Shown: positions 2,574 through 50,617 of the stretch, one piece after another
How positions within the stretch are numbered: the stretch's first letter is position 1
Layout of the letters: every line of letters starts with the position of its first letter
Assembly: GCA_017940575.1 (NCBI GenBank)
Contig: JAGAYJ010000015.1
Coordinates: 81,083-131,699, forward strand
Direction: 5' to 3'
Origin: Bacilli bacterium
Lineage (GTDB): Bacteria > Bacillota_I > Bacilli_A > RF39 > UBA660
Length of the DNA stretch: 50,617 bases
Made by a program: the position numbers and the translations under genes
The notes under the pieces: model-generated
What the model was told of the DNA's origin: nothing
Databases searched by the model: none
Seen by the model: the letters and a program-made list of their open reading frames with translations, nothing else

Positions 2574-3893
2574 ATGAAAAAACAAACCATTGCTCTTGTT
2601 GGAAGACCTAATGTTGGTAAAAGTACTATTTTTAATCGTATAATAGGTAGTAAAATAGCTATTATTGAAGATACTCCAGGTGTTACAAGAGATAGAATAT
2701 ATGGAAATGCTTTATTTAATAATCATAGTTTTTATTTGATTGATACAGGTGGTATTGATATGGAATTCGCATCATTTAATGATGAGATAAAAGTACAAGC
2801 AGAACTAGCAATCGATGAAGCTGATGTTGTTATATTTGTTGTTGATGGTAAAGAAGGATTAACTAGTAATGATTTTGTAGTTAGAGATATGCTTATTAAA
2901 TCAAATAAAAGAGTAATAGTTGCTATTAATAAAACAGATAGTAAAGATTTTAAAGATCACCTATATGACTTTTATGAACTTGGATTTGAAGAATATATAA
3001 ATGTTTCTGGTGAACAAAATATGGGTATATTTGATTTACTTGAATCAGCAACCCGTGACTTTAAAGAGACTAGTGATGAATATAAACCAGATACAATTAA
3101 ATTTTCAATTATAGGAAGACCTAATGTTGGAAAAAGTAGTTTAGTAAACGCAATACTAAATGAAGATAGATCAATTGTATCTAATATTGCAGGAACTACT
3201 AGAGATTCTGTTGATACACCATTTACATACCATTCTAGAGATATGGTTGTAATAGATACCGCTGGTATGAGAAAAAAAGGCAAAGTATATGAAAAAATAG
3301 AAAAATATAGTTTACTTAGATCAATGAAGGCGATTGATAGATCTGATGTATGTGTCATTGTAATAAATGCAGAAGAAGGTATTATTGAACACGATAAACA
3401 TATAGCAGGTTATGCTATAGATGCTGGTAAAGCTGTAGTAATAGTTGTAAACAAATGGGACGTTGTTGATAATAAAGATGCTGAGATGAAAAAGTGGAAA
3501 GCTCTAATAGCAGAAGAATTTGCATTCATGACATATGCACCTGTAGTATTTTTATCAGCTTTAACTAAAAAAAGAATACATACACTTATGCCAGAGATAT
3601 TAAAGGTATATGATAATGCACATAAAGAGATTAAAACAAGCCTACTTAACGATGTTATAATGGATGCATATCAACTTAATATACCACCTTCATATAAAAA
3701 CAAAAGACTTAAAATCTATTTTTCAAATCAAGTAAGTACTTGTCCGCCAACATTTAATATATCAGTTAATTCAAAAGGACTTGTTCACTTCTCATATGAA
3801 AGATACTTAGAAAACAAGCTAAGAGAGTCATTTGATTTTGAAGGAACACCAATTGTAATTAATTTTAAAAATAAAGGAGAAATAGAAAGTTAA
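2574..3893 (+). CDS. der: ribosome-associated double GTPase Der (EngA)
   Basis: Essential tandem-GTPase factor for 50S subunit maturation. The first G domain has G1 GRPNVGKST (about residues 10-18), DTGG and NKTD. The second has G1 GRPNVGKSS near residue 181, DTAG and NKWD. The C-terminal KH-like domain follows, including the typical PPSYKNKRLKIYF stretch. At 439 aa the length is normal. It is transcribed from the extended -10 at 2542, and its terminator stem encloses the stop codon. Confidence 0.98.
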   Translation: MKKQTIALVGRPNVGKSTIFNRIIGSKIAIIEDTPGVTRDRIYGNALFNNHSFYLIDTGGIDMEFASFNDEIKVQAELAIDEADVVIFVVDGKEGLTSNDFVVRDMLIKSNKRVIVAINKTDSKDFKDHLYDFYELGFEEYINVSGEQNMGIFDLLESATRDFKETSDEYKPDTIKFSIIGRPNVGKSSLVNAILNEDRSIVSNIAGTTRDSVDTPFTYHSRDMVVIDTAGMRKKGKVYEKIEKYSLLRSMKAIDRSDVCVIVINAEEGIIEHDKHIAGYAIDAGKAVVIVVNKWDVVDNKDAEMKKWKALIAEEFAFMTYAPVVFLSALTKKRIHTLMPEILKVYDNAHKEIKTSLLNDVIMDAYQLNIPPSYKNKRLKIYFSNQVSTCPPTFNISVNSKGLVHFSYERYLENKLRESFDFEGTPIVINFKNKGEIES

Positions 3894-3910
3894 CTATTTC
3901 TTTTTTTTTA
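3879..3910 (+). terminator. intrinsic terminator of der, spanning its stop codon
   Basis: GAAATAG (3879-3885) pairs with CTATTTC (3894-3900), followed by nine T. The TAA stop (3891-3893) lies in the loop. Confidence 0.8.
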
Positions 3911-3915
3911 ATTAG

Positions 3916-3924
3916 TGTTATAAT
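3916..3924 (+). promoter_or_regulatory. extended -10 promoter of the 3941 gene
   Basis: TGTTATAAT directly after the der terminator and only 16 nt before the next ATG, implying a leader of about ten nucleotides. Confidence 0.55.
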
Positions 3925-3940
3925 TAAAATAGGTGAGAAT

Positions 3941-4366
3941 ATGAATAAACAAAAGTTAATGCGCTACGTACTTATGAAAAAGGAAAAAGAAATGGGAATT
4001 GAATTAGAAAAAGAACAAGTGGAATTCTTTAATGAAATGGAGAAAGTTTATAATAGTGATCCAATACTTAAAGAACAAATCAATTCACTTGTTAATGCAA
4101 GTAGTATGAGAGATGCTAATAATATTTTAGCAGGTAATAACAAAAAAGAAGCATTCACTCCATATGTAGAAGATAATATAAAACCTGTTGATATTGATAA
4201 TGAGGTATCAGGAGGTGGTGAGATAGCACCAACTCAGGCAGAAACCTCTAAAGTATTAGTTAAAACACAAAATAGAAAAGCTGGATATGTAGATGCTTTT
4301 GTTATGGCTCTTGTTACAGGCTTTGTTGGTGGAGTTGCTACTACAGTATTATTTATTTTATTATAA
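3941..4366 (+). CDS. tail-anchored membrane protein, 141 aa, unknown
   Basis: Unrecognised. AGGTGA precedes the ATG. Residues 1-60 are charged and probably helical (many Glu and Lys). A variable Asn/Gly-rich linker follows, and residues about 116-141 form one hydrophobic helix rich in Gly and Val that reaches the C-terminus. With no signal peptide, a cytoplasmic domain anchored by a C-terminal helix is the natural reading. It has its own promoter and terminator, so it is monocistronic. Confidence 0.7.
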   Translation: MNKQKLMRYVLMKKEKEMGIELEKEQVEFFNEMEKVYNSDPILKEQINSLVNASSMRDANNILAGNNKKEAFTPYVEDNIKPVDIDNEVSGGGEIAPTQAETSKVLVKTQNRKAGYVDAFVMALVTGFVGGVATTVLFILL

Positions 4367-4386
4367 GAACACTAAGTTCTTTTTTT
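4365..4386 (+). terminator. intrinsic terminator
   Basis: AAGAAC (4365-4370), loop ACTAA, GTTCTT (4376-4381), then T5. It overlaps the stop codon of the 3941 gene. Confidence 0.7.
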
Positions 4387-4466
4387 GTAAAATTATGTCA
4401 AAAAATTTATAATTGCTTGAAATTGATAATTATATATTATATTATCAATATAGGGAGGGGATTAAA

Positions 4467-4661
4467 ATGATTTACCCATCAATTGATAAATTATTGAATA
4501 AAGTGGGATCTAAATATTTACTAGTGAATCTAGTATCTAAAAGAGTAAAAGAAATGGAAGAAAAAAGAAACTATCAACTTCCTGAAAGTGATTATGTTTC
4601 TAAAAAAAATATAGGAAGAGCACTAGAAGAAGTATCAAAAGATATGATTAATCTAAAATAA
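4467..4661 (+). CDS. rpoZ: RNA polymerase omega subunit
   Basis: Small subunit that helps assemble and stabilise RNA polymerase by clamping the beta' C-terminus. The diagnostic opening MIYPSIDKLLNKV, the central SKYLLVNLVSKRVKE and the closing IGRALEEV are present; 64 aa is typical of Firmicutes. I use the ATG at 4467 behind the strong AGGGAGGGG site; an upstream in-frame TTG would add 18 residues the family lacks. In Bacilli rpoZ usually follows gmk; here it is separate from gmk. It shares a bidirectional terminator with convergent sspI. Confidence 0.92.
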   Translation: MIYPSIDKLLNKVGSKYLLVNLVSKRVKEMEEKRNYQLPESDYVSKKNIGRALEEVSKDMINLK

Positions 4662-4685
4662 AAAAGCCAATTAGGCTTTTTTTAT
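4661..4685. terminator. bidirectional terminator between rpoZ and sspI
   Basis: AAAAAGCC (4661-4668), loop AATTA, GGCTTTTT (4674-4681), flanked by A-rich and T-rich runs so it can work on both strands. It touches the stop codons of both convergent genes. Confidence 0.8.
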
Positions 4686-4877
4686 ATTTTCGTGAATTAT
4701 TTCAACAATTTCATTTCTAAAGTTATCATCACTATTATTCCAAAGCATTTCAAATAAAACACCCAAACCTGGAAGTACTACTTCATCTTTTGATGTAACA
4801 GATGCTATAACAGTCTCTTTTACATCCATTATATTACACTCTTTTAAATTTTTAATTATATAGTCTCTTATACTCAT
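4671..4877 (-). CDS. sspI: small acid-soluble spore protein SspI
   Basis: Minor SASP of the SspI family, made in the developing forespore. The hallmark block VVLPGLGVLFEMLW is intact in the centre, preceded by an amphipathic N-terminal region and followed by an acidic helix ending in IIHENIKKA, as in Bacillus SspI; 68 aa is a family-like length. A strong GGAGGGT site precedes the ATG. The last codons KKA-stop form one arm of the terminator shared with rpoZ. SspI outside a spore former would have no known role, so this is one of the strongest hints of sporulation in the window. Confidence 0.92.
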   Translation of the reverse strand: MSIRDYIIKNLKECNIMDVKETVIASVTSKDEVVLPGLGVLFEMLWNNSDDNFRNEIVEIIHENIKKA

Positions 4878-4978
4878 ATGTACCCTCCAAATATATTTTG
4901 ATTATTTAATATTTTTTTATACAAAAAAGTTTTCTTTTTTTAAAAATAAATGTATAATGAATATAGGAGGATGATAAA

Positions 4979-5530
4979 GTGATAGCATTAGTTATTATAC
5001 TTGTAGTTGTTGCACTTATTATATTCTGGTTAATTGGTGCATATAACGCATTAGTATCTTTAAGAAATAAAGTTAGAGATCAATGGTCTCAAATAGATGT
5101 ACTTCTAAAAAGAAGATCTGATTTAATTCCTAACTTAGTTGAAACTGTAAAAGGTTATGCAGGACATGAATCAGGTACACTAGAAGCTGTTATTGCTGCT
5201 CGTAATAAAGTAGTTGCAGCACCATCTAAAGAAGAAGAGATGAAGGCTAGTGGTGAATTAACTGGAGCTTTAAATAGATTATTTGCTTTAGCTGAATCTT
5301 ATCCTGATTTAAAAGCAAATACTAACTTTATGGACTTACAAAATAACTTAAAAGATACTGAAGATAAAATTTCATATGCAAGACAATTCTATAATGATGC
5401 AGTTATGAAATATCAAAATAAAATAGAAATGTTTCCTACTAATATTGTAGCTGGAATGTTTAATTTTAAACCAGAAAAATTCTTTGAAGCATCTGAAGCT
5501 GAAAAAGAAACACCAAAAGTTGAGTTTTAA
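4979..5530 (+). CDS. lemA: LemA family membrane-anchored protein
   Basis: LemA proteins have one N-terminal transmembrane helix followed by a long helical cytoplasmic domain; the function is not established. Here residues about 2-24 are hydrophobic, then the typical NKVRDQWSQIDVLLKRRSDL and LIPNLVETVKGYAGHE stretch, and near the C-terminus ISYARQFYNDAVMKYQNKIE and the FPTNIVAGMF motif. It uses a GTG start at 4979 with AGGAGG 8 nt upstream; the ATG at 4971 would stop after three codons. A -10 TATAAT lies at 4953-4958. LemA often neighbours DUF2207/TPM-domain genes; in this window the DUF2207 gene is 27 kb away. Confidence 0.95.
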   Translation: MIALVIILVVVALIIFWLIGAYNALVSLRNKVRDQWSQIDVLLKRRSDLIPNLVETVKGYAGHESGTLEAVIAARNKVVAAPSKEEEMKASGELTGALNRLFALAESYPDLKANTNFMDLQNNLKDTEDKISYARQFYNDAVMKYQNKIEMFPTNIVAGMFNFKPEKFFEASEAEKETPKVEF

Positions 5531-5557
5531 AAACAAGTAATTTTACTTGTTTTTTTA
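5529..5557 (+). terminator. intrinsic terminator of lemA
   Basis: AAAACAAGTAA pairs with TTACTTGTTTT across a short TT loop, then T. It overlaps the TAA stop. Confidence 0.8.
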
Positions 5558-5588
5558 AATGTGTTAAAATTTATATGGAGGTAATAAT

Positions 5589-6143
5589 ATGCGTGATATA
5601 TTTAATAATTATTTTAAAATAACATTTGCATCATCAATTTTATACTTAGTATTTGGACTATTACTTTTCTTTAATCCAGAAGGAGTAATTGTTACAATAT
5701 CAGTTATTATAGGAGCCATCTCAATGATATTTGGTATATTTGAAATTATAATGTATACAAAAACTAATTCACATGCAGCACTTACTCTTGGAGCATTTAC
5801 ATTTGTTGCTGGATTAATTTTATGCTTAAATACAAATATACTAGCTACAATTATACCAATGATTATAGGTGTAGCACTTCTAATGCAAGGTATTAAAAAA
5901 TTAGAAATAGCCGCAGCTTTTAAGGAAAAAAGCCATGATAATTGGCTATATATGTTTATAGCAGCAACACTAACAATTATAGTTGGACTTATTTTATTTA
6001 TAAATCCAATATTAGGAGCTGTTATAACAACACAAATAGTAGGTGCTTTTATAGCAGTTTATGCTGTTATTGATATAATTGATAATATAGTTATTAAGAA
6101 AAAATACAAAGAAGTAATTAAAATAATTGATGAGGTAAAATAG
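5589..6143 (+). CDS. HdeD/DUF308-type six-helix membrane protein
   Basis: Almost the whole 184-aa chain is hydrophobic: about six membrane helices in two similar halves. The LLFFNPEGVIVTISVIIGAI motif in the first half and LILFINPILGAVITTQIVGA in the second match the internal repeat of DUF308/HdeD proteins. The biochemical role of Firmicutes members is unknown. A basic tail (VIKKKYKEV) points to a cytoplasmic C-terminus. GGAGGT precedes the ATG. The next gene starts on the last base of its TAG, so the two are co-translated. Confidence 0.8.
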   Translation: MRDIFNNYFKITFASSILYLVFGLLLFFNPEGVIVTISVIIGAISMIFGIFEIIMYTKTNSHAALTLGAFTFVAGLILCLNTNILATIIPMIIGVALLMQGIKKLEIAAAFKEKSHDNWLYMFIAATLTIIVGLILFINPILGAVITTQIVGAFIAVYAVIDIIDNIVIKKKYKEVIKIIDEVK

Positions 6144-6331
6144 TGTTAGAATGGAAAAAGGGATTTATTAAACCAAATAATACAAAAATAGTAACACCAC
6201 TTAAAATTAAAAGTGATACTGAAAAAATTGAGGAAATTAAAAAAAGACTTCATCCAAATAATTTTACTTTTAATTCAAATAATTGTGTAAATCATATGGA
6301 TAGGGTAAATAATTTAAAAAAATTAAAATAG
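6143..6331 (+). CDS. small hypothetical protein, 62 aa
   Basis: Unrecognised. The GTG start shares its G with the TAG stop of the DUF308 gene, and GAGGT lies 8 nt upstream. The product is basic, soluble and without hydrophobic segments; residues are mostly Lys, Asn, Ile and Thr. Coupled translation with the membrane protein upstream suggests an associated cytoplasmic partner, but this is inference from position only. Confidence 0.6.
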   Translation: MLEWKKGFIKPNNTKIVTPLKIKSDTEKIEEIKKRLHPNNFTFNSNNCVNHMDRVNNLKKLK

Positions 6332-6352
6332 TAAGCATTTGCTTACTATTTT
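6327..6352. terminator. bidirectional terminator containing two convergent stop codons
   Basis: AATAGTAAGC (6327-6336), loop ATTT, GCTTACTATT (6341-6350). The palindrome places a TAG stop for the plus-strand gene at 6329-6331 and a TAG for the minus-strand gene at 6346-6348. Confidence 0.8.
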
Positions 6353-7179
6353 ATTATTCTATATAAATTGAATGATGGACGATTATTTAATCTAAAACTA
6401 TATTTGTATGTTCCAATACCATTTGATATAATCATTTTGCTTTTATCCACAGTATAAGTGGAATCTATATATTTTTTTGCGCCTTCATTTTTTATTATAC
6501 CACCAATAATAGGAAGTCTAACTTGTCCATTTAATGAGTGACCAGCCAGTATTAAATTAAAAGAATTATGATTAAATTTATCAATAAAGTCAGGTTCATG
6601 CATAAGTAGTATACTATAATTTGGCTTATTGTTTTGTAAAAATTCATTAGTTGTTTTTAACTTTTCATCAATAGAAGTTTTATCTTTAATATTAGAACTC
6701 ATGCCAGCAAGTAAAATATAGTCTGTATCTTTTGTATAAATTAACTCATAACTATTACTAATATCTTTAAAACCACTGTTATTTATTATTTCATCAAAAC
6801 CATCTATATCATTATCACCTTTAATTGTGAATTTACCGATACTCGCATCTATTTCACTTAAAATAGAAGATATTTTTTCATATTCTTTAGAATCTAGTTT
6901 TATATTTGTAAGTAAATCTCCTGTTAAAACTACAATATCAGGTTTAGTTTGATTGATTTTTTTAACTAATTCTTTTAGTTCTTTTTCATGAGTTGTTCTT
7001 CCATAATGTATATCTGTTATATGTACAATTTTTAAACCATAAAAATCATCACTTAAATTATTATATTTTATACTTTGTTCATTAACTTTTATTCCAGATA
7101 CACCTATATATCTACTATAAAGTAATACAACAATTATTATAAATAATATAATTGTAAAAAATTCAATTATTCTTTTCAT
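6346..7179 (-). CDS. membrane-anchored metallophosphoesterase (YkuE-like), variant motifs
   Basis: Calcineurin-like phosphoesterase with an N-terminal membrane anchor (about residues 5-24), the layout of YkuE-type enzymes. Visible motifs are ITDIHYG (metal ligands D and H), LTGDLL, LLMHEPD and LAGHSLNGQ. Two motifs depart from consensus: the usual GNHD is GDND, losing the catalytic His, and the usual GHTHGGQ is GHSLNGQ, losing its second His. The fold is clear, but activity may be altered or lost. 277 aa is normal for the family. It lies downstream of a CPBP protease gene on the same strand with a terminator-like hairpin between. Confidence 0.85.
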   Translation of the reverse strand: MKRIIEFFTIILFIIIVVLLYSRYIGVSGIKVNEQSIKYNNLSDDFYGLKIVHITDIHYGRTTHEKELKELVKKINQTKPDIVVLTGDLLTNIKLDSKEYEKISSILSEIDASIGKFTIKGDNDIDGFDEIINNSGFKDISNSYELIYTKDTDYILLAGMSSNIKDKTSIDEKLKTTNEFLQNNKPNYSILLMHEPDFIDKFNHNSFNLILAGHSLNGQVRLPIIGGIIKNEGAKKYIDSTYTVDKSKMIISNGIGTYKYSFRLNNRPSFNLYRIIK

Positions 7180-46275: not shown

Positions 46276-47127
46276 ATGAAAGAAAAAATAAAGACAATTT
46301 CAAAATTATTTGAAGGTATGGAGATTAGAAGTGTATGGGATAGTGAAAAGGAAGAATATTATTTTAGCGTTGTTGATGTAATTAAAGCATTAACTAATAG
46401 TGATAATCCACGAAATTATTGGAATATGTTAAAAAAGAGGATGAATGAGGAAGAAAAAAGTGAGTTGTACACAAAATGTGTACAACTGAAAATGAAATCA
46501 TCAAAAGATGGTAAGATGTATAAAACAGATACATTAGATACAGAAGGTATATTTAGACTTATTGAATCAGTACCATCTCCAAAAGCAGAGCCTTTTAAAT
46601 TATGGCTTGCTAAACTTGGTAGACAAAAAGTTGATGAAGCATTTGATCCATCAATTGGTATAGATGAAATGATTGATTTTTATTTAAAAAAAGGTTATAC
46701 GTTAAAGTGGATTGAAACTAGAATAAAAGCAATTATTGATCGTAAAAGACTAACTAAAAAATGGCAAGATGGAGGTATTAAAGGATCTAGTGAATTTGCT
46801 ATCTTAACAAATGCAATTTATAAAGAATGGTCTGGTATGACAGCGAGTGAATATAAAGTTTTTAAAAATATTAGAAAAGAGAATTTAAGAGATAATATGT
46901 CTAGAATAGAAATGCTTCTAACTGATTTAGGTGAACTTACAACTCATGATATTGTAGATAATGAAAAACCAATTGGCTTAAGTGAGAATATAAAAGTTGC
47001 CAAAAGAGGTGGAAATGTAGCTAAAGTTGCAAAAGAGTTATATGAAAAAGAAACAAAAAAAGAAGCTCTATCAAATACTAATAATTTAAATTATGCTTAT
47101 ATAGATGATGAAAAAGTAATAGAGTAG
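46276..47127 (+). CDS. BRO-family (Bro-N) DNA-binding protein, antirepressor-like
   Basis: The N-terminal Bro-N domain (about residues 10-115) has the typical YYFSVVDVIKALTNSDNPRN, then DTEGIFRLIESVPSPKAEPF and KLWLAKLGRQKVDEAFDPS. The second half, with KKWQDGGIKGSSEFAILTN, EWSGMTASEYKVFK and KENLRDNMSRIEMLL, matches the conserved C-terminal region of a widespread chromosomal and phage BRO group. Such proteins act as phage antirepressors or DNA-damage-associated factors; the role in this cell is unknown. 283 aa. AAAGGAGG precedes the ATG. A perfect inverted repeat lies inside the gene (46464-46486). Confidence 0.85.
   Translation: MKEKIKTISKLFEGMEIRSVWDSEKEEYYFSVVDVIKALTNSDNPRNYWNMLKKRMNEEEKSELYTKCVQLKMKSSKDGKMYKTDTLDTEGIFRLIESVPSPKAEPFKLWLAKLGRQKVDEAFDPSIGIDEMIDFYLKKGYTLKWIETRIKAIIDRKRLTKKWQDGGIKGSSEFAILTNAIYKEWSGMTASEYKVFKNIRKENLRDNMSRIEMLLTDLGELTTHDIVDNEKPIGLSENIKVAKRGGNVAKVAKELYEKETKKEALSNTNNLNYAYIDDEKVIE
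46464..46486 (+). repeat. perfect 10-bp inverted repeat inside the BRO gene
   Basis: GTTGTACACA (46464-46473), spacer AAA, TGTGTACAAC (46477-46486). The spacer is too short for a comfortable RNA loop at full pairing, and it is a candidate protein-binding palindrome. It encodes LYTKCVQL of the Bro-N domain. Confidence 0.8.
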
Positions 47128-47176
47128 CTTTAATCTTTAAATTTAAATTACTTTAATTTACTAACTATCATTTACG

Positions 47177-47185
47177 TGTTATAAT
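47177..47185 (+). promoter_or_regulatory. extended -10 promoter of murL-murD
   Basis: TGTTATAAT, 16 nt before the murL ATG. No -35 box at the right distance. Confidence 0.6.
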
Positions 47186-47201
47186 TAATTAGGTGAATTG
47201 T

Positions 47202-48524
47202 ATGGATAAATTTAATGAACTTAGAAATAAATTTGAAAGTATTATATATAAAAAATATGAAATAATAGATGAGGGTGAAGCTTTAAAAATAGTATTTACA
47301 TTTGAGATACCTAATTTAAAAGTATTTACTCCATCTTTAACTATAAATAAAAGTGATATAACTAATGATTCTATAAATAATGATTTACTTAATTCTATAA
47401 TATTCAGAATTGGTATGATAGAGTTAATTAGCTATTATAAATGTGTATGTCCTAAAAAAGTAGTTATAGAAGCTGGATATATTGATTCATTTGAACAAGA
47501 TTGGTTTAAAAAACTATTTTATAATGGACTTGGAGAATTTTTCTATGTAAACGGTATAAGTGTTAGTATAGATGAATTATTTGACTTTGATATTAGAGGA
47601 GAAAAAATTGATATTAAAGATGTAGAATATAAAGGATTTGGTAACTTAATACCTATCGGTGGTGGAAAAGACTCTAATGTAACACTTGAACTTTTAAAAG
47701 ACTATGATAATAAGTGTTTCATGATTAATCCTAAACAAGTACATATTGATTGTGCAGGAGAATTAGACTATTACGCAGTTAAAAGAGTAATTGATAAAAA
47801 CTTAATTGAACTTAATAAGTTAGGCTATTTAAATGGTCATACTCCTTTTAGTGCAATTGTAGCTTTTATTTCATATTTAATGGCTTATTTGACTAATAGA
47901 AAGTATATAGTACTTTCTAATGAAGGATCAGCTAATGAACCAACTGTAATTGGTACTAATATAAATCATCAATACTCTAAAACTTATGAATTTGAGTGTG
48001 ATTTTTATGAATATACAAAAAAATACTTTAATATAGATATTAAATATTTTAGTTTACTTAGACCTATTAAAGAAATACAAATAGCTTATCTTTTCTCTAA
48101 ATATACTAAATATCATAAAATATTTAGAAGTTGTAATGTTGGATCTAAGGAAAATCCTTGGATATGGTGTTGTAATTGTCCTAAATGTTTATTTGTATTT
48201 ATAATTCTAAGAGCATTTATGTCTAGGGAAGATGTAGTTGATATATTTGGGGATAACATGCTAGATAATAAAGAATTAGAAAAATACTTTATAGAGTTAA
48301 TAGGTGAGGCAGAAACTAAACCGTTTGAATGTATTGGAACAATTGAAGAAGTTAGATTTGCAATGAACAGAATAATTAAAAATGATGATTCATATCTATC
48401 TAATCTTTATAAAGAAAAATACTATAAAAATGAGGATATTGATTTATCTAAAATATATTATGAAAATAATGTCGTAGATGAATATTTAGATATTTTAAAA
48501 GAGGCGATTAGAAGTGCAAGATAA
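47202..48524 (+). CDS. murL: probable UDP-MurNAc-L-Ala-L-Glu epimerase MurL
   Basis: MurL converts the L-Glu of UDP-MurNAc-L-Ala-L-Glu to D-Glu with ATP, giving the second residue of the peptidoglycan stem. The family-like features are a PP-loop-type IPIGGGKDSNVTLEL (near residue 150), LNGHTPFSAIVAFISYLMAY, then VLSNEGSANEPTV and NHQYSKTYEFECDFYEY. Next come FSLLRPIKEIQIA, FRSCNVGSKENPW and a Cys cluster CCNCPKC (near 323) with F-x-F after it. These match what I recall of Xanthomonas MurL and its homologues. Start is ATG 47202; the GTG at 47193 lies in the AGGTGA site. It overlaps murD by 11 nt. Confidence 0.85.
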   Translation: MDKFNELRNKFESIIYKKYEIIDEGEALKIVFTFEIPNLKVFTPSLTINKSDITNDSINNDLLNSIIFRIGMIELISYYKCVCPKKVVIEAGYIDSFEQDWFKKLFYNGLGEFFYVNGISVSIDELFDFDIRGEKIDIKDVEYKGFGNLIPIGGGKDSNVTLELLKDYDNKCFMINPKQVHIDCAGELDYYAVKRVIDKNLIELNKLGYLNGHTPFSAIVAFISYLMAYLTNRKYIVLSNEGSANEPTVIGTNINHQYSKTYEFECDFYEYTKKYFNIDIKYFSLLRPIKEIQIAYLFSKYTKYHKIFRSCNVGSKENPWIWCCNCPKCLFVFIILRAFMSREDVVDIFGDNMLDNKELEKYFIELIGEAETKPFECIGTIEEVRFAMNRIIKNDDSYLSNLYKEKYYKNEDIDLSKIYYENNVVDEYLDILKEAIRSAR

Positions 48525-49836
48525 AATACTTGAAAAGTTAAGAAGTTATAATAATATAGCAATACTCGGATATGGAAGAGAAGGTATATCAACATATAAC
48601 TTTATTAGAAAACATGATGAAAATATTAAACTAACTATTTTGGATGCAAGAGAAATTATTCCTGAAGATAAAAATACTTCATATAAAAAATATAATGGAG
48701 AAGAAGATTTAAGAGAATTTGATTTAATCATTAAAACTCCAGGTGTACCTATCTTAGGTTTTAGTGAAAAAACCATCTCTAAAATTACTTCTCAAATGGA
48801 ATTATTATTAGAAGTAAATAGTGATAATGTAATAGGTATAACTGGTACTAAGGGAAAAAGTACAACATCAACTTTAATCTATGATATTTTAAAGGATCAA
48901 ATGGATAAAGTTTTCTTGGTAGGAAATATAGGTGTTCCAGTATTAGATAAAATAGATGAATATGAAGGAGCTACTATAGTAGCAGAGATGTCATCACATC
49001 AATTAGAGACTGTTAAAGTCTCACCTCATATTGGAATTATCTTAAATCTATATTCAGATCACTTAGATCATGCAGGAACATTAGAAAACTATCACGCATC
49101 TAAGATGAATATAATGAGACATCAAAAGATAACTGACTTTGCAATATATGATTTAGATAATGAATATTTAAAAAAACAAGACTTTTCAAATGTTATAGGT
49201 AATAAACTTACTGTATCAATTAATAAAGAAGCAACTATTTATTTAAAAGATAATAATATAATTTTAAATAATGAATTATTATTAAATAGAGAAGATATTA
49301 AAACTGAATTAAAAGGTGATAATAATTTAAAAAATATTATGTTCGCACTACTAGTAGCTAGTTTATATAACTTAGATATAAATAAAGCATTAGTTTCTAT
49401 AAAGAACTTTAAACCACTAGAACATAGAATGGAATATGTTGGTAAATATAATGATATTAACTTTTATAATGATGCTATTGCGACTATCCCTGAGGCAACA
49501 ATAAGTGCTTGTCAAACATTAACTGATGTAGATACTCTAATATTTGGTGGTATGGATAGAGGAATAGACTATACAAAACTAATAGATTATTTAAATAATT
49601 CTAGTATTAAACATTTAATATGTATGCCAACAACTGGACATAAGTTAGCTAAACATCTAGATCAAAATAAAGTAATATTAGTAGATACTCTAAAAGAGGC
49701 TGTGGATAAAGCATTTGAAGTAACAAGCAAAGGAAAAACTTGTATAATGTCTCCAGCAGCATCAAGCTATGAATACTTTAAAAATTTTGAAGAAAAAGGT
49801 AGAACTTATAAAGAACTTGTTAGAACTCACAAATAG
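48514..49836 (+). CDS. murD2: Mur ligase, MurD, likely L-Glu-specific MurD2
   Basis: Mur ligase adding glutamate to UDP-MurNAc-L-Ala in the cytoplasm. N-terminal Rossmann domain (LGYGREGISTYNFI), ATP motif GITGTKGKSTT (near residue 107), EMSSHQLE, NLYSDHLDHAGTLENY and the C-terminal domain with PLEHRMEYV and SPAASSYEYFKNFEEKG. The classical MurD D-Glu-binding motif DSKATN is NDAIATIPEAT here, without the Lys, a form I associate with MurD2, which takes L-Glu. Paired with murL that is the consistent reading. GTG start with GAGG 9 nt upstream, overlapping murL, so co-translated. 440 aa is normal. Confidence 0.88.
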   Translation: MQDKILEKLRSYNNIAILGYGREGISTYNFIRKHDENIKLTILDAREIIPEDKNTSYKKYNGEEDLREFDLIIKTPGVPILGFSEKTISKITSQMELLLEVNSDNVIGITGTKGKSTTSTLIYDILKDQMDKVFLVGNIGVPVLDKIDEYEGATIVAEMSSHQLETVKVSPHIGIILNLYSDHLDHAGTLENYHASKMNIMRHQKITDFAIYDLDNEYLKKQDFSNVIGNKLTVSINKEATIYLKDNNIILNNELLLNREDIKTELKGDNNLKNIMFALLVASLYNLDINKALVSIKNFKPLEHRMEYVGKYNDINFYNDAIATIPEATISACQTLTDVDTLIFGGMDRGIDYTKLIDYLNNSSIKHLICMPTTGHKLAKHLDQNKVILVDTLKEAVDKAFEVTSKGKTCIMSPAASSYEYFKNFEEKGRTYKELVRTHK

Positions 49837-49922: not shown

Positions 49923-50617
49923 ATGATAGATACAGAAGAAAAATATTATACAGGAAAGTATGATAAAGCATTTAAAGAAATATTTTTAAAAGAATCTAAT
50001 AAAGATTTACTTAAAGTTTTATTGGAGGCAATATTAAATGTTAAGATTTATGATATAAAATTAGAACCAACAGAAAGGTTAAGTAATCATTTAAAAATCA
50101 AGAAAAAAACTTTTGATTGTCTGCTTAATACTAATGAAGGATTAATAGGAATAGAAGTAAATACAAGCCAACCTTCTTATATTCATCCAAGGAATTTTGC
50201 TTATGCATGTGATATGTATAAATCATCAACTACTATAGAAGATAACTATAGTGAAAATATTAATATAATTCAAATTAATTTAAGCTTTGGTTTACCTAAA
50301 AAACAAGAAAGAATTAGAGTATATAAAATGCAAGATGAAAAAGGAAATATGTTTGTTAAAAATTTTAAAATAATAGAGATTAATATGGATTTATATAATA
50401 AAAAATGGTATGATTTAAATAGATTAGAAATGACAACTGAAGAAAAAGAAAAAAATTTAAGTTTGATAATGATAGGGGAAGAAAGAGATAACCTTTTAGA
50501 ATTATCAAAAGAAAATAAGGTGGTGAATAAATATATGGAAGAGCTAGATAGAATTAATAAAGATCCAATATTTAGATGGTCTATATCAGAAGAAGATGAT
50601 CAAAGAATGATTAAAAA
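49923..50617 (+). CDS. Rpn/PD-(D/E)XK nuclease family transposase, runs off the window
   Basis: The first 231 codons are present; the gene continues beyond the window. The opening YDKAFKEIFLKESNKDLLKV, LEAILN, then the nuclease strand pair TFDCLLNTNEGLIGIEVNTS match Rpn-family (PF12784-type) recombination-promoting nucleases. The usual catalytic ExQ or ExK after the Asp is EVN here. These genes spread horizontally and are not linked to transposon ends here. A very strong AAGGAGGAG site precedes ATG 49923, and a TATAAT lies at 49886-49891. Confidence 0.82.
   Translation, partial: MIDTEEKYYTGKYDKAFKEIFLKESNKDLLKVLLEAILNVKIYDIKLEPTERLSNHLKIKKKTFDCLLNTNEGLIGIEVNTSQPSYIHPRNFAYACDMYKSSTTIEDNYSENINIIQINLSFGLPKKQERIRVYKMQDEKGNMFVKNFKIIEINMDLYNKKWYDLNRLEMTTEEKEKNLSLIMIGEERDNLLELSKENKVVNKYMEELDRINKDPIFRWSISEEDDQRMIK

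Follow-up and report, generated by a model that had tools for sequence, protein, structure and literature searches.

A murL-murD2-type gene pair in a small Bacilli genome and its probable role in making stem-peptide D-glutamate, with relatives across Bacillota and Bacteroidota

The window, by which we mean the whole 50,617-nucleotide stretch of DNA analyzed here, is the end of contig C38 in the 1.02-Mb draft genome of an uncultured Bacilli bacterium (40 contigs, 89% complete). Close to its 3' end are two overlapping genes coding for relatives of MurL and MurD2, with the following features.

47179-47195, forward strand: putative TATAAT-like -10 element and AGGTG ribosome-binding-like site 5' of murL, from direct reading of 47171-47225
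47202-48524, forward strand: murL, ATG start, 440 aa; PP-loop GGGKDS at residues 153-158 and a four-cysteine site (C311/C323/C326/C329)
48514-48524, forward strand: 11-nt overlap of the murL end and the murD start, from direct reading
48514-49836, forward strand: gene for a murD2-type ligase, GTG start, 440 aa; the equivalents of K319, K348, and D182 are Ile, Arg, and Asp

The initial annotation reported the 11-nt overlap together with GGGKDSNVTLEL, LSNEGSANEPTV, NHQYSKTYEF, and CCNCPKC in the murL open reading frame and NDAIATIPEAT in that of murD, and direct reading finds all of these as quoted. Such an overlap would be as expected for translationally coupled genes, and an alternative GTG start for murL is present at 47193. 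Upstream of the pair lies a Bro-N family gene (46276-47127), and downstream of it is a PDDEXK_2 transposase-family open reading frame (49923-50615) that runs past the contig end; these flanks suggest that the neighborhood is mobile.

The gene 5' of murD was thought to have MurL features, and this is borne out by its match to the NCBIfam profile NF041275 (MurL; 247.6 bits, E 1.7e-73, model positions 36-395 of 447). This equivalog model (MurL_Xanthmoales) has a curated cut-off of 700 bits that is set for Xanthomonadales; the window protein falls below it and is thus outside the Xanthomonadales equivalog as curated, so that our claim is one of homology and like function. The protein shares 32% identity over 82% of its length with the annotated MurL of Xanthomonas sacchari, and its Pfam match is to DUF6395 (residues 278-424), a domain matched weakly by 58 of 72 MurL sequences. 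A better fit to an unrelated PP-loop family had been considered, but the sequence searches matched MurL and no other enzyme family.

An AlphaFold model of MurL built with 72 sequences (mean pLDDT 94.7, pTM 0.93) has a single significant match in the PDB, the PP-loop protein QueC (7-cyano-7-deazaguanine synthase; Foldseek E 1.7e-4, probability 1.00, TM 0.62 by target length). QueC is also the best match in the viral library BFVD (E 5.1e-5) and is thus the top structural match in both libraries searched. Among the invariant MurL residues are the PP-loop GGGKDS and C311, C323, C326, and C329, the last four in a pattern similar to that of the clustered cysteines in E. coli QueC (CNVGSK...C-x2-C-x2-C against CYNGFK...C-x2-C-x2-C), and we infer that the four cysteines bind zinc. 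MurL is nonetheless about 200 residues longer than QueC, has a different substrate and a different outcome, and has no significant sequence similarity to it; since a profile-based comparison to one QueC sequence fell short of significance (probability 4%), the likeness rests on predicted structure and motif. The prediction for MurL is thus a PP-loop fold like that of QueC, together with a four-cysteine site. QueC, the characterized member of this fold, activates a carboxylate with ATP. The predicted fold would fit ATP activation of a carboxylate by MurL, and carboxylate activation with ATP by a QueC-type enzyme is also discussed elsewhere (PMC13060819). MurL has been reviewed as a protein without known domains, with adenylation of the alpha-carboxylate as the hypothesis of its authors (PMC8788868).

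The window MurD scores 315 bits against TIGR01087 (murD; cut-off 212) and contains the Pfam domains Mur_ligase_M and Mur_ligase_C. Like canonical MurDs, it has the Mur ligase fold and keeps K115, N138, E157, H183, K198, and T321 (E. coli numbering, from an alignment of MurDs to E. coli MurD and X. sacchari MurD2). It departs from them at position 319, where every one of the 110 MurL-linked MurDs, X. sacchari included, has Ile or Leu (Ile in the window enzyme), whereas E. coli and all 30 canonical MurDs of the same family have Lys. Three MurDs encoded away from murL in MurL genomes are of the Ile type too. Loss of this Lys had been proposed as the change expected for use of L-Glu, and E. coli MurD accepts L-Glu once it has the K319T substitution (PMC8788868). 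The proposal holds in that the loss is a perfect marker of the MurL-linked MurDs examined, but less well at the determinant Glu197, which is Asp here.

Both E197D and R358K alter the stereospecificity of X. oryzae MurD2 (PMC8788868). Position 182, which corresponds to X. oryzae E197, is Glu in Xanthomonas MurD2 and Asp in the window enzyme, as it is in E. coli MurD. The other 108 MurL-linked MurDs of Bacillota and Bacteroidota have Glu in 73 cases and Asp in 35, so that Glu182 is not universal among them; Asp is found in 15 of 28 others of the same family and in 20 of 70 elsewhere. Because the Glu197 determinant is Asp in the window MurD, its specificity for L-Glu is only presumably strict. 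Position 348 (X. oryzae R358) is Arg in the window enzyme; we rejected it as a marker of L-Glu use, as canonical MurDs of the same family have Arg too.

A MurD tree separates the two types of enzyme, with the MurL-linked MurDs, the unlinked Ile-type MurDs, and X. sacchari MurD2 on one side of a branch (35 rows; SH-aLRT 98.8) and the E. coli, Bacteroidota, and family canonical MurDs on the other, the X. sacchari and E. coli rows being long-branched. MurL and MurD2 identities correlate over the 110 loci (Mantel r 0.87; 0/999).

The distribution of MurL was compared with that of MurI in 241 genomes sampled from the order, every one of which belongs to the family of the source genome. MurL is present in 35 and MurI over cut-off in 85, and none has both; an overlap of 12.3 genomes is expected (P 5e-8, or P 1.6e-9 among genomes with MurD, with genomes treated as independent, which they are not). 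Stated otherwise, MurI is found in 0/35 genomes with MurL and 85/206 without it, and MurD is present in all 35 MurL genomes. Six genera (g3, g16, g18, g19, g42, and g57) have MurL in some species and MurI in others, and the alternation has therefore happened repeatedly. Ten genomes sampled from a second Bacilli family (f19; 1.2-2.8 Mb, 95-99% complete) have MurL, and a PF01177 racemase was found in none of the ten. Seven MurL genomes of the first family (G073, G122, G125, G157, G199, G207, and G225) code for an extra canonical-scoring MurD beside the MurL-linked MurD2, and MurI is in none of these; they are possibly in a transitional state.

We note that lacking MurI says little by itself about dependence on MurL in this family, since 81 of the 241 genomes (e.g., G001, G002, G005, and G017) have MurD (best E < 1e-50), with MurI, MurL, and D-amino-acid transaminase all absent. 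D-amino-acid transaminase is over cut-off in none of the 241, and a PF01177 racemase is absent too from G001, G002, and G005, which are 96-99% complete. These 81 presumably scavenge or use another route. DapF, for which there is a precedent as a D-Glu source in Chlamydia (PMC5885031), was rejected as the source in family genomes lacking MurI and MurL, being over cut-off in 20/241 and scattered over all groups. A further 38 genomes (e.g., G022, G086, G110, and G111) have no clear MurD (best E > 1e-50), MurI, or MurL and are candidates for wall-less members. The mraY-murD neighborhood was uninformative as a sign of murD loss, with mraY near canonical murD in only 1 of 30 loci.

In the source genome, the initial annotation expected MurI to be dispensable or absent, and profile searches of the 89%-complete draft gave no MurI, PF01177 racemase, or D-amino-acid transaminase (Dat). 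A second, classical murD was also not seen in the draft, where the window gene codes for the sole MurD; such single-gene absences are weak at this completeness. There are three further Mur ligases, which we read from sequence and neighbors as MurE beside MraY, MurC, and MurF beside a D-Ala-D-Ala-ligase-like gene, and a bifunctional penicillin-binding protein and an FtsW/RodA protein are encoded in the window. With MurC, MurE-MraY, MurF-Ddl, and these two proteins, the genome is equipped for peptidoglycan synthesis.

The gene pair extends well beyond the family. A cross-phylum scan with one genome per species matched at least 587 stretches, at least 569 of which encode a MurL relative, and the best 80 of these are from Bacilli, Lachnospiraceae, other Clostridia, and Bacteroidota by record name, with Pseudobutyrivibrio xylanivorans DSM 14809 (Lachnospiraceae) among them. 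This cultured strain has MurL and a single MurD, of the Ile type, and MurI is not over cut-off in it. murD is downstream of murL in 73 of the best 80 loci, directly adjacent in nearly all, and among 39 other MurL loci fetched from the same class as the window, adjacency is kept in 38, with murD2 one gene away in the remaining one; the pairing is thus not due to chance. MurI is over cut-off in none of the 50 MurL genomes from the best 80 loci, compared with 212 of 250 Lachnospiraceae genomes. Seventeen of the 50 have weak MurI-profile matches (≤79 bits), which are taken to be other racemases of the superfamily.

Three genomes (L103, L122, and L136) have MurL but no MurD at E 1e-45 or better, reflecting either assembly gaps or a very divergent MurD. 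Pseudonocardia plasmids carry MurL homologues annotated as hypothetical (NZ_CP010991.1, NZ_CP011869.1, and L153, the last at 3764-5164 of Pseudonocardia alni plasmid pPaSha1), and that of L153 may differ in role, given that no MurD adjoins it. An adjacent murL-murD2 pair is also present at 3878-6536 of MT836755.1 (L154), a record deposited as a bacteriophage from human feces. We rejected it as an instance of phage-borne murL, as it is an unverified, unannotated fecal scaffold and most likely a bacterial contig.

The reactions of MurD2 and MurL have been shown for the X. oryzae enzymes and actinobacterial orthologues (PMC8788868, PMC5808125), and the pair is listed in Gammaproteobacteria, Alphaproteobacteria, and rare actinobacteria (PMC8788868, PMC5808125). 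The literature searched did not turn up any report of MurL in either Bacillota or Bacteroidota. The initial annotation had not seen the pairing discussed for reduced Bacilli, but it is not special to them, being widespread in both phyla. We compared the X. oryzae pair (XOO_1320/XOO_1319) via X. sacchari R1 (NZ_CP010410.1). The gene order is the same as in the window, with an overlap of 20 nt there and 11 nt here; MurL homology extends over most of its length, MurD2 has Ile319 and Arg348, and X. oryzae is reported to be without MurI, as none was found in the source genome. In contrast, the host belongs to another phylum and has a small AT-rich genome, identity is 32% for MurL and about 25% for MurD, and the window MurD has Asp for Glu at 182 (X. 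oryzae E197) and Ser/Tyr for Pro/Phe (P433/F435). It differs from a canonical MurD-MurI system in having Ile for Lys319, a separate tree branch, and no MurI found in the genome.

We consider it very likely that the window genes are a MurD2-MurL module that makes stem-peptide D-Glu, and we infer that their products would catalyze the two Xanthomonas reactions. L-Glu would already be attached to the peptidoglycan precursor and would then be flipped to D-Glu; MurL would use ATP and release AMP, activating the alpha-carboxylate of the attached Glu as an adenylate and so making its alpha proton acidic. By such a route the organism would need no free D-Glu, MurI, or D-amino-acid transaminase. Formation of D-Glu via MurL and MurD was also the initial reading, and it is supported at the sequence level by mutual exclusion with MurI, gene linkage, residue 319, and the MurD tree; every computable check proposed in the initial annotation gave a favorable result. 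In a variant of this explanation, MurD has relaxed specificity and would accept either enantiomer of Glu, the L form being converted by MurL, and environmental D-Glu would be usable too. Asp182 in the window enzyme is in its favor, as are the changed stereospecificity of X. oryzae E197D and the acceptance of L-Glu by E. coli K319T (PMC8788868), but no D-Glu source was found in the source genome and we regard the variant as unlikely.

An ordinary D-Glu-ligating MurD could instead draw on D-Glu that is scavenged or made by a racemase encoded in the missing 11% of the genome, with the MurL homologue playing another role. The genome is indeed incomplete, 81 family genomes have MurD without a known D-Glu source, and the window enzyme shares Asp182 with E. 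coli MurD. This explanation is nevertheless quite improbable in light of the exclusion of MurI from MurL genomes, both within the family (0/35 versus 85/206) and across phyla (0/50), the invariant loss of Lys319, and murL-murD adjacency kept from Xanthomonas to Bacteroidota. The Bro-N and PDDEXK_2 transposase-family flanks raise the prospect that a mobile element carries the pair or left it behind, in which case it would not be the working route. We give this very little credence, however, as neither frame is disrupted, catalytic residues are conserved in both, and the genome, which retains MurC, MurE, MurF, Ddl, MraY, the bifunctional penicillin-binding protein, and FtsW/RodA, shows no MurD other than that of the pair.

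The chemistry of the MurD2-MurL module is already known from Xanthomonas; what appears to be new within the literature searched is its range (hundreds of Bacillota and Bacteroidota), its alternation with MurI within genera, and the QueC-like fold. On balance, we favor a broader picture in which MurD2-MurL is a major third route to stem-peptide D-Glu that has spread horizontally through Bacillota and Bacteroidota and repeatedly alternates with MurI within genera, with MurL a QueC-like PP-loop enzyme recruited for peptide epimerization via carboxylate activation. The predicted fold would offer a structural basis for the proposed adenylation mechanism of MurL, and the Ile/Lys marker at position 319 allows genomes to be sorted by sequence. 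The pathway has been described as limited to relatively few genera and proposed as a narrow-spectrum antibiotic target (PMC8788868); such a target is less selective given that the pair is present in hundreds of Bacillota and Bacteroidota, many of which were sampled from the gut. A 2024 study of reduced Bacilli orders noted missing peptidoglycan precursor steps, such that muropeptide scavenging would be needed unless there are unidentified replacement genes (PMC10868615), and the murL-murD2 pair bears on this gap in the precursor pathway.
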